Shown piece by piece: positions 3,946 to 61,202 of a DNA stretch of 64,000 nt. A program made the position numbers and the translations under genes. Where the stretch lies: contig NZ_BAFK01000001.1 of the NCBI RefSeq assembly GCF_000296695.1, forward strand, positions 124,001-188,000, in the 5' to 3' direction. This DNA comes from Rheinheimera nanhaiensis E407-8 (lineage in GTDB: Bacteria > Pseudomonadota > Gammaproteobacteria > Enterobacterales > Alteromonadaceae). The first letter of the stretch is position 1. Every line of letters starts with the position of its first letter. Below the pieces are notes generated by a model, which was not told the origin of the DNA, made no database searches, and worked only from the letters and a program-made list of their open reading frames with translations.

Positions 3946-5238
3946 ATGAATGCAGTGAAAAAGAACAATAATAAAAACGAGCAGCAAGTTATTGCCGATT
4001 TAACCGAGGCGGCACAGCAGCAGCTGGAAGCCAGTCTGGTGGAGTTTTCCAGCCAGCTATTAAATGCCCAGCAACAGCAGCTGCAGCAATTTGCCAGCAC
4101 GGTAGTGGCTGATAGCCAAAAGCAGTGGCAACAGCGCTTAATAGAGCAGGAACAAGCTTATCAGAAACTGTTTAAAGACTGGCAGCAAACCAAGCAGCAG
4201 CTGGATTTAGCCGTCCCGGTGGCCAGTGCCGATAATCAGGAACTGTCAAAGCTGCGCCAGCAGCATAAAGTGGTAAGCGAAGAGTTAGAGGCGGCGCGGC
4301 AAAAGTTAGTTAGCCTAAGCGCCGAGCGCGAAGCGCAAACCGCCCAGCTGGAGCAATTCCAACAGAAATTACAGCAGTTACAGCAGGCTTCTGCGGATCC
4401 GGCCGCGCAGCAAAAACTGCAGCAAACCGAGCAGCAACTGACGCAGCTGCAACAGCAATTAGCCAGCGCCGAGGCCGATGCCGAGCAAGCTAAAGCCACT
4501 GTGCACGAAATGAAGCTGGTAGTACAGCAAAGTAAAACCGAGCTGAAACTGGCCACCGAGCAGCAGCAAAAGCAGCTACAGCAAATTAACGACCTGCAGG
4601 CCGATTACCAGACTAAGCTGGCGCAATTAGAGCAGCAACTAAGCGAGCAGGCCGCCAGTTTCGCCAGCGAAAAGCAGCAGTTTGCTGAGCTTGAAGCCGC
4701 CAGCCAGGACAAATTACAAACCATCGCCCGCTTGCAGCAGGAAGTGCAGGACCGCAAGAAAACGCAGGAACTGCAGCAGCAAAAAATTCAGCAGTTACAG
4801 CAAGAGCTGCAGACGCAAGCCGAACAGCAGCAACAAAATCAACAGCTATTGCAGCAGCAATTAGAAGACGCCCGGCAACAACTGGCCGAGGCGCAGCAGC
4901 AGTTGCTGGCGATGCAGCACGAAACCGGTGGTTTGGGCTCGGAGTTAACCAAGTTACAGGCGGATTACGTTAACCTGACCGAGCAGTATCAGCATAGCCA
5001 GACTAAAGCGCAGAAAATGGAAACCCAGCTTGAACATGCGCAAAACCGCCAGTTCGCTGCCGAACAAAAGCAGCAGCAGGAAGCGGATGCCAGCCGTGAA
5101 TTGATCCGCACCCTGCGCCTGGAGCTGCAACAGCAGCAGGAAACGCATCAGCAGGCATTACAGGCGCTGGAAGAGCGCATGATGGAATACAAGCTGAAGT
5201 TTGAATACGCGCAAAAACAGCTGAAGGTCACCGGCTAG
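3946..5238 (+). CDS. Gln-rich long coiled-coil protein of unknown function
   Basis: 430 residues with almost no predicted structure other than coiled coil: from about residue 20 to 420 it is a run of heptad-like Q/L/E/A/K sequence (for example QQKLQQTEQQLTQLQQQLAS), with no Pro-rich breaks. There is no signal peptide and no membrane segment, so it is cytoplasmic or filament-like. The N-terminus is polar (MNAVKKNNNKNEQQ) and the C-terminus changes character (ERMMEYKLKFEYAQKQLKVTG), perhaps a small interaction site. I do not recognise a family. It is translationally adjacent to the DUF2007 gene, whose GTG follows its stop codon with no gap, so the two proteins are probably made together. An SMC/KfrA-like function would only be a guess. 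Confidence 0.85.
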   Translation: MNAVKKNNNKNEQQVIADLTEAAQQQLEASLVEFSSQLLNAQQQQLQQFASTVVADSQKQWQQRLIEQEQAYQKLFKDWQQTKQQLDLAVPVASADNQELSKLRQQHKVVSEELEAARQKLVSLSAEREAQTAQLEQFQQKLQQLQQASADPAAQQKLQQTEQQLTQLQQQLASAEADAEQAKATVHEMKLVVQQSKTELKLATEQQQKQLQQINDLQADYQTKLAQLEQQLSEQAASFASEKQQFAELEAASQDKLQTIARLQQEVQDRKKTQELQQQKIQQLQQELQTQAEQQQQNQQLLQQQLEDARQQLAEAQQQLLAMQHETGGLGSELTKLQADYVNLTEQYQHSQTKAQKMETQLEHAQNRQFAAEQKQQQEADASRELIRTLRLELQQQQETHQQALQALEERMMEYKLKFEYAQKQLKVTG

Positions 5239-8113: not shown

Positions 8114-8800
8114 ATGCTGGAATTTGCCGATGTCAGTAAAAGTTATCCCGGTGGTTTTGTCGCGCTGGACCGTGTCAGTTTTAAACTGGAAAAAGGTGAG
8201 ATGGCCTTTTTAACCGGCCACTCCGGTGCCGGTAAAAGTACGCTATTAAAACTGATTAGCCTGATTGAACGGCCGAGCGTGGGCCGGGTATTGATTAACG
8301 ATGTGGATTTAAGCCGCATCCGCCGGGCGCATATTCCTTATGTAAGGCGTGATATTGGCATTATTTTCCAAAATCACCGGTTGCTGATGAACCACACGGT
8401 GTTTGACAATGTGGCACTGCCGCTGGTGATTGAAGGCTTTAGCGGTAAAGACATGGTCAAACGGGTGCACGCGGCACTGGATAAAGTGGGTTTGCTGGAT
8501 AAAGTACGCTGCCTGCCGCATACCTTATCCGGCGGTGAGCAGCAGCGGGTGGGCATTGCGCGGGCGGTGGTTAATAAGCCGCCATTACTGCTGGCCGATG
8601 AGCCTACCGGTAACCTGGACCCGGATTTATCCAAAGACATTATGCGGGTATTTGAAGCCTTTAATCAGGTAGGGGTATCTGTGCTGGTGGCCACCCACGA
8701 CTTAGGCCTGGTGGCGCGGATGAAATACCGTACGCTGACACTAAAGCAGGGCAAGATGATCAATGACGGCCTGCTGCAATACCAGGAGGACCCGCTATGA
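8114..8800 (+). CDS. ftsE: Cell division ATP-binding protein FtsE
   Basis: 228 residues, full length for the family. It is the ABC ATPase that pairs with FtsX at the septum and drives activation of periplasmic EnvC and the amidases. Walker A is GHSGAGKST at 35-43, the signature LSGGEQQR near 138-145, and Walker B LLLADEPTGNLD follows. It overlaps ftsX by four bases (ATGA), so the two subunits are translationally coupled. EnvC, the partner activated by FtsEX, is also in this window (57918-59060). Confidence 0.97.
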   Translation: MLEFADVSKSYPGGFVALDRVSFKLEKGEMAFLTGHSGAGKSTLLKLISLIERPSVGRVLINDVDLSRIRRAHIPYVRRDIGIIFQNHRLLMNHTVFDNVALPLVIEGFSGKDMVKRVHAALDKVGLLDKVRCLPHTLSGGEQQRVGIARAVVNKPPLLLADEPTGNLDPDLSKDIMRVFEAFNQVGVSVLVATHDLGLVARMKYRTLTLKQGKMINDGLLQYQEDPL

Positions 8801-9780
8801 GTATCTTGTTCTCCGGTCGGGTCACCAGCGGTGCTTCCGAGCATAAAATTGGTATTGCCCGCCGCTTTGTCATGTTCTGGGTCAATCATGTGCGCCAGGC
8901 TGTGGCCAGTTTAGGCGAGCTTTGGCGTACGCCGTCGGCCTCTATTTTAACTATTGGGGTGCTGGGCGTCAGTTTAACCTTGCCGGCGACCTTACACCTG
9001 CTGGTAAAAAACGTGCAGCAGGTCAGTGACAGCTTTACCCAGGCAGCAGAAATCAGCCTGTTTATTAAAGAAGGCAGCAGCGACACCCAGATCCGCAGCC
9101 TGCAGCAAATTCTACAGGCCGATCCGGCCATTGCCCGTGTCAGCCATATCAGCAAACAGCAAGCGTTGGACGAGTTTGCCGCCGTGTCAGGTTTTGGCGC
9201 AGCGCTCAATTATTTAACCGACAACCCACTGCCGGATGTGCTGCTGGTGCTACCGAAAAATACCCAGGCCGCCAGCGCCCGCGAGCTACTGGCAAGGCTG
9301 AGCAAAGAGCGGATTGTCGAGTTTGGTAAACTGGATATTGACTGGCTAACCCGGCTGGATGCCATTGTCAGCTTATTGCGTCAGGCGGTGCTGGTAATTG
9401 CCGTGCTGCTATTGGGCGCGGTATTGCTGATTATCGGCAACACCATCCGCTTATCTATTATGAACAAAAAAGATGAAATTGAAGTGATGAAGCTGGTCGG
9501 CGCCACCGATGCCTTTATTCAGCGGCCCTTTTTGTACAGCGGCATCTGGTATGGCGTGTTTGGCGGCTTACTGGCATTTTTGATTGTCGAGGCCATGCTG
9601 TGGTGGCTACAAAGTGCCATTGTTAGCGTGACCTCGCTGTACGACAGCGACTTTAGCCTGCAAGCCCTCAGCTTTGTCGAGTTTGCCAGCCTGATGGCAC
9701 TGGCGATGGCACTGGGATTAGGTGGCTCTTACCTTTCAGTGCGCCGCCATATCACGGCCATTGAACCCACCGGCCCTTAA
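8797..9780 (+). CDS. ftsX: Cell division protein FtsX
   Basis: 327 residues. It is the membrane partner of FtsE. A cytoplasmic N-terminal part (about 1-50) precedes a first membrane segment around 51-72, a periplasmic loop of about 120 residues that in other species contacts EnvC, and three further membrane segments: LVIAVLLLGAVLLIIGNTI near 198-216, GIWYGVFGGLLAFLIVEAML, and FASLMALAMALGLGGSYL. The C-terminal RRHITAIEPT is conserved in FtsX. Its ATG lies inside the ftsE stop. Confidence 0.95.
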   Translation: MSILFSGRVTSGASEHKIGIARRFVMFWVNHVRQAVASLGELWRTPSASILTIGVLGVSLTLPATLHLLVKNVQQVSDSFTQAAEISLFIKEGSSDTQIRSLQQILQADPAIARVSHISKQQALDEFAAVSGFGAALNYLTDNPLPDVLLVLPKNTQAASARELLARLSKERIVEFGKLDIDWLTRLDAIVSLLRQAVLVIAVLLLGAVLLIIGNTIRLSIMNKKDEIEVMKLVGATDAFIQRPFLYSGIWYGVFGGLLAFLIVEAMLWWLQSAIVSVTSLYDSDFSLQALSFVEFASLMALAMALGLGGSYLSVRRHITAIEPTGP

Positions 9781-9804
9781 TAGCGTTTAATTATGACTGG
9801 TTAG

Positions 9805-9829
9805 TTTTTAGAATAAGCAGATCTAAAAA
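9805..9829. repeat. AT-rich inverted repeat between ftsX and rpoH
   Basis: TTTTTAGA (9805-9812) and TCTAAAAA (9822-9829) are perfect inverted copies around nine bases. The stem is too AT-rich for a normal intrinsic terminator. It sits 15 bases before the CIRCE element, so it could be an accessory operator. Confidence 0.4.
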
Positions 9830-9844
9830 AGGCGGCAACTAAAA

Positions 9845-9874
9845 TTAGCACTCTCAGTCAAAGAGTGCTAATAT
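9845..9874 (+). promoter_or_regulatory. Perfect CIRCE operator (HrcA site) overlapping the rpoH promoter
   Basis: TTAGCACTC at 9845-9853, nine bases, GAGTGCTAA at 9863-9871: all 18 defined positions of the CIRCE consensus. CIRCE is the binding site of the heat-shock repressor HrcA. It covers a plausible sigma-70 promoter: TTAGCA (9845-9850) as a -35, 18 bases, TAATAT (9869-9874) as a -10, which would start transcription near 9881 and give a leader of about 26 bases before rpoH. The site is seen directly; that HrcA exists in this genome is inferred. Confidence 0.92.
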
Positions 9875-9906
9875 TGCCCCACTTAGCTTAGGACAGGACA
9901 CTAAAG

Positions 9907-10758
9907 ATGAGCGATACAGCAGAAATGATGTCATTACCGGTAGCGGCCAGCAGTAGCCTGGAAGCTTATACCCATGCTGTCAGTGCTATACCTATGCTCA
10001 GCGCAGAACAAGAGCGCAGCCTGGCTGAACGGTTACACCAGCATGGTGATTTAGAAGCTGCTCGTCAGCTGATTATGTCGCACCTGCGTTTTGTAGTGCA
10101 TATTGCCCGCAGTTATTCTGGCTATGGTTTGCCGGTTAGCGACCTTATTCAGGAAGGTAATATTGGCCTGATGAAAGCGGTAAAACGCTTTGACCCAAGT
10201 GTAGGCGTGCGGCTGGTGTCTTTTGCTGTGCACTGGATTAAAGCCGAAATTCATGAGTATGTACTGAAGAACTGGCGCATCGTTAAAATTGCCACCACCA
10301 AGGCGCAGCGCAAACTGTTTTTTAACCTGCGTAAAGCGAAAAAGCACTTAGGCTGGTTTAATCAGGAAGAAGTGAAAAACGTAGCAGAGTCGTTAGGGGT
10401 AGCCGAGCATGAAGTGCGTGAAATGGAAGCGCGCATGAGCAACTACGATATGCCATTTGATGCGCCGGATGAAGACGATGAATCAGCTTACACTGCGCCG
10501 GTATATTACCTGGAAGATAAAGCCTCTGATCTGGCCCACCGGGTAGAGGAAGATCAGTGGGATAACGCCGCAGTGGATCGCTTGCAAGCGGCGATGCGCA
10601 CCCTGGATGACCGCAGCCAGGACATTATCCGCGCCCGCTGGCTGGATAATGCCAAGCTGACGCTGCAAGAGCTGGCCGATCGCTATGGCGTATCCGCTGA
10701 GCGGGTGCGTCAGTTGGAGAAAAACGCGATGAAAAAGCTACAGGCTGCCATGAGCTAA
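9907..10758 (+). CDS. rpoH: Heat-shock sigma factor RpoH (sigma-32)
   Basis: 283 residues. RpoH directs RNA polymerase to chaperone and protease genes. Region 2 includes [18 protein letters not shown], the 2.4 stretch [23 protein letters not shown], and the diagnostic RpoH box [13 protein letters not shown] (about 138-150), which sets it apart from RpoD and RpoS. Region 4 ends with the helix-turn-helix [26 protein letters not shown]. It follows ftsX in the enteric order but has its own promoter bearing a CIRCE operator, implying transcriptional repression by HrcA. It ends at a strong bidirectional terminator shared with metJ. Confidence 0.97.
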
Positions 10759-10781: not shown

Positions 10782-10817
10782 GCATAAAAAAACCGCCGGC
10801 AGGCGGTTTTTTTATGC
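10782..10817. terminator. Bidirectional terminator between rpoH and metJ
   Basis: Sixteen-base perfect arms, GCATAAAAAAACCGCC (10782-10797) and its complement (10802-10817), around the loop GGCA. The GC core CCGCC/GGCGG is flanked by runs of seven A and seven T, so it ends transcription from both sides. Confidence 0.93.
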
Positions 10818-10828
10818 CTTACAGCAAC

Positions 10829-11164
10829 TTATTCTTCGTCGCTGTCGGCTTCAATAATCACCGGGATCGGTTTGCCCATGCTGGTCAGGATCTGACGCAC
10901 TTCAGCTGGGATCTGATGCGGGTTGTCTTTACGTAAGTCTTCATCGGCCGGTAATGGCTGGCCGGTGAAGGCATGTAAGAATGCCTCACATAATAACTCA
11001 CTGTTGGTGGCATGACGCAGGTTATTCACCTGACGCCGGGTGCGTTCATCTGTCAGCACCTTTAATACGTTCAGCGGAATTGATACGGTGATTTTTTTTA
11101 CCAGTTCTGATTTTTTACCGTGTTCCGCGTACGGGTGAATGTATTCCCCATTCCACTTAGCCAT
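10829..11164 (-). CDS. metJ: Methionine repressor MetJ
   Basis: 111 residues, slightly longer than the enteric protein. MetJ is a ribbon-helix-helix dimer that binds tandem met boxes with S-adenosylmethionine as corepressor. The core [20 protein letters not shown] then [20 protein letters not shown] is almost identical to the E. coli sequence; only the C-terminal 20 residues ([12 protein letters not shown]) differ. It diverges from metB, whose promoter region contains MetJ sites, so it probably also autoregulates. Confidence 0.97.
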
Positions 11165-60767: not shown

Positions 60768-61202
60768 ATGCAGCAGTATATTGAGTTTTTTTCCAATCAT
60801 CCGATTTTAAGCGCAGTTTGGGTTGTGCTGTTTGTGATGTTAATCGCCAGCATGATTAAATCGCGTTTCTCCGCTGTTAAACAGCTAAGCCCCACCGAGC
60901 TGACCCTGCAGGTTAACCGTGACGATGCATTGGTGGTCGATATCCGCGCCGAGGCCGATTTTGCCAAGGGCCACATTACCGGCGCCCGTCAACTGGCGCT
61001 TGGCGATATTGAAAAACAGCAACTGGCCGGGCTTGAAAAACACAAAGCGCAACCCATTATTGTGGTATGTCAGGCCGGAATGACGGCACAAAAAGCAGCT
61101 GCCAGCCTTATTAAGCAAGGCTTTAATAAGGTGTCGGTACTGCAAGGTGGCATGAGTGGCTGGACTGGCGCCAGCTTACCGGTGGTAAAAAGCAAGAGGT
61201 AA
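60768..61202 (+). CDS. yibN: Membrane-anchored rhodanese-like protein YibN
   Basis: 144 residues. One N-terminal membrane segment (about 13-29) and a rhodanese domain: LVVDIRAEADFAKGHITGARQL, then catalytic Cys in VVCQAGMTAQKAAASL. It may transfer sulfur or act in membrane protein biogenesis; the E. coli homologue is not fully defined. TATACT at 60725-60730 is a likely -10. Its stop lies three bases before grxC begins. Confidence 0.92.
   Translation: MQQYIEFFSNHPILSAVWVVLFVMLIASMIKSRFSAVKQLSPTELTLQVNRDDALVVDIRAEADFAKGHITGARQLALGDIEKQQLAGLEKHKAQPIIVVCQAGMTAQKAAASLIKQGFNKVSVLQGGMSGWTGASLPVVKSKR

Follow-up and report, generated by a model that had tools for sequence, protein, structure and literature searches.

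HrcA and sigma-32 are generally presented as two heat-shock systems working in parallel, with some targets, groESL among them, in common. In the classical model, HrcA is inactive when GroEL is occupied by unfolded protein. The rpoH promoter region of Escherichia coli includes P3, a promoter that depends on sigma-E. Closer to the locus presented here, a CIRCE operator has been predicted before rpoH in Geobacter sulfurreducens, where it is perfect and lies 51 bases from the start of the gene (PMC545781, Table 8); that study names groESL as the sole constant member of the HrcA/CIRCE regulon in the delta-proteobacteria it covers. For Agrobacterium, a groESL with a CIRCE plus a sigma-32 promoter has been reviewed (PMC11764788). 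As far as the accessible portions of the open literature extend, CIRCE at rpoH is not described for Gammaproteobacteria, and elsewhere only for the delta-proteobacteria of PMC545781.

Here we describe a CIRCE operator before rpoH of Rheinheimera nanhaiensis E407-8. Within the window, the whole 64 kb stretch of DNA that was analysed, the operator occupies positions 9845–9871 of the plus strand and reads TTAGCACTC TCAGTCAAA GAGTGCTAA in full. Its two 9-base arms flank a 9-base spacer (TTAGCACTC-N9-GAGTGCTAA) and match the motif at 18/18 bases, which bears out the preliminary description of a perfect site with the exact spacer; of the extent given there, 9845–9874, the last three bases (TAT) lie outside CIRCE, which ends at 9871. 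The window contains this single CIRCE at up to 3 mismatches, whereas 100 shuffles average 0.03 at that threshold, and a chance match was rejected as its origin on this ground. The 3.99 Mb genome as a whole likewise has no CIRCE within 3 mismatches other than the one before rpoH; the control, the same pattern read backwards, gave one chance match there at 3 mismatches.

The rpoH gene (9907–10758, plus strand) starts 35 bases downstream of the operator. It encodes a sigma-32 protein of 283 amino acids with the motif QRKLFFNLR, in which sigma-70 regions 1.2, 2 and 4 are found and the RpoH equivalog model is over its cut-off (TIGR02392, 417 bits, cut-off 323); the RpoH of R. pleomorphica is 98.6% identical to it. 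Upstream on the same strand lie ftsE (8114–8800, TIGR02673) and the immediate neighbour ftsX (8797–9780, TIGR00439), and metJ (10829–11164, minus strand, NF003622) converges with rpoH from the other side. Between rpoH and metJ, a GC-rich inverted repeat at 10786–10815, flanked by A and T runs, is by eye a likely shared terminator.

The operator is fixed across the genus. Comparison of the rpoH upstream regions of relatives, proposed in the preliminary description, places a perfect CIRCE, one per genome, in 31/31 genus genomes, with rpoH downstream in all 31; one of them, G018, has an extra 2-mismatch CIRCE elsewhere. In the alignment of these sites, 18/18 arm columns are invariant and 5/9 spacer columns vary (columns 11–15), columns 10 and 16–18 being invariant as well. 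A wider pattern scan, whose named loci place this genome among Rheinheimera, Alishewanella and Arsukibacterium, finds rpoH behind CIRCE in 48/51 stretches; of the remaining three, two (L153 and L176) end just past CIRCE and one (L170, an Erysipelotrichaceae MAG) comes from another phylum. The L170 site, a perfect CIRCE at 4035, stands 33 bases before an 851-aa open reading frame that by eye has a ClpB-type look.

Candidate promoter elements are interleaved with the operator. The last bases of the right arm and the three that follow CIRCE form an extended -10, TGCTAATAT (9866–9874, plus strand), which 29/31 genus genomes keep and which likely belongs to a sigma-70 type rpoH promoter. The candidate -35 is TTAGCA, which lies 18 bases ahead of TAATAT and fits poorly (4 mismatches over both hexamers), and a sigma-70 scan of 9700–9960 returned no promoter at the scan threshold. 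The earlier claim that the site covers the likely -35 and -10 of rpoH is partly supported, the candidate -10 overlapping the right arm. A weak sigma-E-like promoter could also be read on the plus strand, as GCAACTA (9835–9841; two -35 mismatches), 16 bases and TCAAA (9858–9862), the TCAAA sitting inside the CIRCE spacer and beside it. Relative to the geometry of the class described below, this motif is displaced by 6 bases; its TCAAA is kept in 21/31 genus genomes, the other 10, of which at least one is Arsukibacterium, having either no motif or a GTAAA variant only. Because 21 sigma-E-like sites equal to or better than this one occur on both strands of the window, a sigma-E promoter at this rpoH, weak on its own, is only possible, and because the TCAAA occurs in only 21/31 genomes, we do not rest the case for the window on it. 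A candidate sigma-32 promoter for rpoH, GTCAAA-14-CCCCAC, was considered and rejected: it has 3 mismatches, and its CCCC falls at columns that vary in the genus.

The repressor that would read this operator is present. The preliminary description made its proposal depend on hrcA, and a genome search found one copy (G000:C30), flanked by grpE on one side and by a divergently oriented NAD kinase gene on the other. Its product scores 237 bits against TIGR00331 (cut-off 197) and 131 bits against PF01628, which covers the C-terminal HrcA domain over residues 108–322, and residues 7–157, the winged-helix DNA-binding region included, align to the solved Thermotoga HrcA 1stz (E = 9e-18). HrcA of the genome's own family is more diverged than that of other families in the order, at 131 against 164–217 bits for PF01628. 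In 31/31 genus genomes, hrcA is present and free of internal stops, with a median dN/dS of 0.03 (75 of 435 pairs within dS limits), where rpoH has a median of 0.015 (79 pairs) and grpE one of 0.071 (189 pairs); by this measure, hrcA is under strong purifying selection.

The hrcA gene itself carries a sigma-32-like promoter, 56–60 bases upstream, in 30/30 genus genomes read (the hrcA locus of the 31st was left out), with at most 1 mismatch in 22 and 2 mismatches in 8; mononucleotide shuffles give a background of 0.13% at 1 mismatch and 2.9% at 2. In none of these 30 does a CIRCE precede hrcA, even with 4 mismatches allowed. The preliminary description mentions neither the hrcA promoter nor the sigma-E motif at rpoH. 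In other families of the order, hrcA promoters fit sigma-32 less well, and CIRCE before hrcA was not seen there either.

A similar picture holds for the chaperone genes. Sigma-32-like sites precede the genome's own grpE and dnaK (1 mismatch each) and its groESL (2 mismatches); among the four genus groESL upstreams read, that of G013 has no sigma-32 site at the threshold used. The window as a whole has one sigma-32-like site at up to 1 mismatch and nine at up to 2, the former at 61033 (TTGAAA-13-ACCCAT). Contrary to the preliminary description, which looked for more CIRCE copies at groESL and grpE, the genome has no second copy within 3 mismatches. Looser searches agree: no CIRCE precedes groESL at up to 5 mismatches in four genus genomes, this one included, or the genome's own hrcA, grpE or dnaK at up to 6, and a hidden CIRCE before any of these genes was rejected by searches at 4–6 mismatches. 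Two features of the classical class I regulon, CIRCE before groESL and CIRCE autoregulation of hrcA, are absent at these thresholds.

Taken together, the operator is very probably the site at which HrcA represses rpoH, which would be its only detectable target in the genus. By occupying CIRCE, HrcA would cover the rpoH promoter and hold sigma-32 low. Once HrcA is inactivated, presumably through the GroEL signal, rpoH would be transcribed, and sigma-32 would then drive groESL, dnaK, grpE and hrcA from their sigma-32-type promoters. Fresh HrcA and GroEL would in turn shut rpoH off again, closing a negative-feedback loop with its own predicted dynamics, while post-translational control of sigma-32 probably continues. 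The cascade of HrcA over sigma-32 proposed in the preliminary description appears to be the best reading, because hrcA is present and under strong purifying selection and because CIRCE and hrcA occur together across genomes, as detailed below.

Other readings differ on how exclusive and how strong this control would be. HrcA may also bind at sites that a 3-mismatch search misses, and it could then be a broader regulator for which rpoH is merely the best-conserved site, groESL or dnaK being reached through degenerate ones. The divergence of HrcA within its own family, through which specificity could have relaxed, would suit such a regulator, as would the CIRCE before groESL in Kangiella and family f14; against it stand the upstreams of groESL, hrcA, grpE and dnaK, empty at the thresholds given above, and the lack of a second site anywhere in the genome at up to 3 mismatches, and we regard this reading as quite improbable. 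Alternatively, the operator might be occupied to minor effect: translation and proteolysis would chiefly set sigma-32, as they do in E. coli, and HrcA would be a minor brake or a relic. RpoH does retain the QRKLFFNLR motif, in keeping with such control, and three genomes of the class retain an rpoH CIRCE with no HrcA detected. A relic would, however, decay in both operator and hrcA, whereas the 18 arm bases are invariant over 31 genomes despite a changing spacer, and the dN/dS of hrcA is 0.03. The predicted 5′ mRNA (9881–10120) also folds no better than its shuffles (z = +1.0), which speaks against control of the E. coli kind, although a thermometer like that of E. coli is still compatible with this value. 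We consider a minor role unlikely, without dismissing it.

Finally, the inverted repeat between ftsX and rpoH could be read as an RNA hairpin acting as terminator, attenuator or thermometer. The repeat could indeed fold, and a scan reads it as terminator-like on the minus strand, but that strand is opposite to both ftsX and rpoH. Moreover, what the arms preserve is their exact sequence and not just the ability to pair, the site follows hrcA from genome to genome, and the conserved -10 overlapping the right arm would place the transcription start downstream of the repeat, leaving the hairpin reading with very little credibility.

The association of operator and repressor on which HrcA control of rpoH partly rests extends beyond the genus. 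In a sample of 148 genomes from the order, the 17 that have a CIRCE with at most 1 mismatch are exactly the 17 that have HrcA over cut-off (Fisher p = 1e-22), and CIRCE stands at rpoH in 17/17; one further genome, G177, has an HrcA match below cut-off and no CIRCE. Four families account for these 17 genomes: f1, with two of its eight sampled genera, f7, f14 and f20. Those of f1 and f20 have one CIRCE in total, at rpoH, and the two f7 and three f14 genomes read also have one at groESL, so within the order the constant HrcA target seen appears to be rpoH and the target lost groESL. In Kangiella-type f7 genomes (L033–L039 and L120), CIRCE at rpoH is a tandem pair, 31 bases start to start, in 8/8, and a tandem pair 33 bases apart is found in G069 of family f14 (L119).

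Across 276 genomes of the class, 192 have both CIRCE and hrcA, 5 CIRCE only, 13 hrcA only and 66 neither (p = 5e-44); the 5 and the 13 make the coupling less than strict beyond the order. Of the five CIRCE-bearing genomes with no HrcA detected, three (G191, G288 and G372; stretches L284, L307 and L141) have their only CIRCE at rpoH, with 1 mismatch. The 13 genomes with HrcA over cut-off and no CIRCE at up to 1 mismatch, such as G187, G251 and G294, may use a changed operator. A further genome, G033 (L380; 89% complete, no HrcA at cut-off), has a degenerate CIRCE with 3 mismatches some 107 bases upstream of rpoH, which may be an operator that has been decaying since hrcA was lost.

CIRCE at rpoH is also far from the rarity that the preliminary description implied. 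Every listed site was classified in 74 of the 197 CIRCE-bearing genomes of the class, comprising the first 37 in listing order, which are not a random draw, and 37 from a second selection of 40 among the remaining genomes (3 left out). CIRCE precedes rpoH in 60/74 by tblastn (58/74 by comparison of open reading frames), at the same frequency, 30/37, in each set; it precedes groES or groEL in 66/74 and hrcA in 20/74.

The rpoH and groES sites of the class differ in promoter geometry. At rpoH, AT occupies the second and third base after CIRCE in 44/60 sites, against 1/66 at groES, and together with the right arm completes TAAnAT. The groES consensus has the reverse arrangement: ahead of CIRCE, TAT occupies -5 to -3 and A occupies -1, which would fit an operator lying just behind a -10. 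A sigma-E motif, defined as GGAACTT, 15–17 bases and TCnnA, marks the rpoH sites in particular: at up to 1 mismatch it is found in 41/60 rpoH, 0/66 groES and 0/21 hrcA CIRCE sites (0.7% in shuffled flanks) and is not found in the other 19 rpoH sites; at up to 2 mismatches, the counts are 48 rpoH, 2 groES and 1 hrcA. In 34 of these 48 rpoH sites, the sigma-E -35 begins 16 bases before CIRCE with a spacer of 16, which puts the sigma-E -10 on CIRCE positions 8–12. Among order relatives without HrcA over cut-off, 10/28 rpoH upstreams (27 genomes) have the motif (0.8% in shuffles) and 18/28 do not at the threshold, so the motif does not depend on the presence of CIRCE.

This arrangement suggests that, class-wide, HrcA gates a relay from sigma-E to sigma-32. 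We lean, on balance, towards a composite CIRCE/sigma-E promoter, in which the end of the left arm is the -10, as the ancestral rpoH promoter of the class, with HrcA, responding to cytoplasmic folding, gating the passage from sigma-E (envelope stress) to sigma-32. Enterics would then have lost hrcA and CIRCE and kept a bare sigma-E promoter, and in the Rheinheimera group HrcA would have been cut to a single site and placed under sigma-32, leaving a pure feedback loop. If this holds class-wide, the E. coli state, rpoH transcription without HrcA, would be derived, and rpoH transcription would merit more weight in other Gammaproteobacteria.

How, then, does the locus compare with known systems? 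It resembles E. coli in having ftsX as the neighbour of rpoH, and the sigma-E scan finds TGAACTT-16-TCTGA 121 bases upstream of rpoH in K-12; unlike here, the region upstream of rpoH in E. coli contains no CIRCE even with 6 mismatches allowed, and E. coli has no HrcA. With the class I regulon of the Bacillus subtilis type, it shares the repressor family and the operator and differs in that its groESL has no CIRCE and that the predicted target is a sigma factor, the chaperones being reached indirectly. Geobacter sulfurreducens, as predicted in PMC545781, likewise has a perfect CIRCE before rpoH and hrcA in the genome; there, however, CIRCE also precedes groESL and the operon hrcA-grpE-dnaK-dnaJ, whereas here it precedes rpoH only, and a sigma-32-like promoter replaces the CIRCE of that operon at hrcA. 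What differs from known relatives is thus the apparent one-site regulon and the sigma-32-like promoter on hrcA; the class-wide CIRCE/sigma-E composite may be new as well. A natural HrcA regulon of one operator would make the input–output behaviour of HrcA directly measurable. In Kangiella and family f14, both heat-shock systems also meet, through a CIRCE and a sigma-32 promoter at groESL. There they act in parallel on the chaperonin promoter, whereas in Rheinheimera HrcA and sigma-32 appear in series, through rpoH and with feedback.
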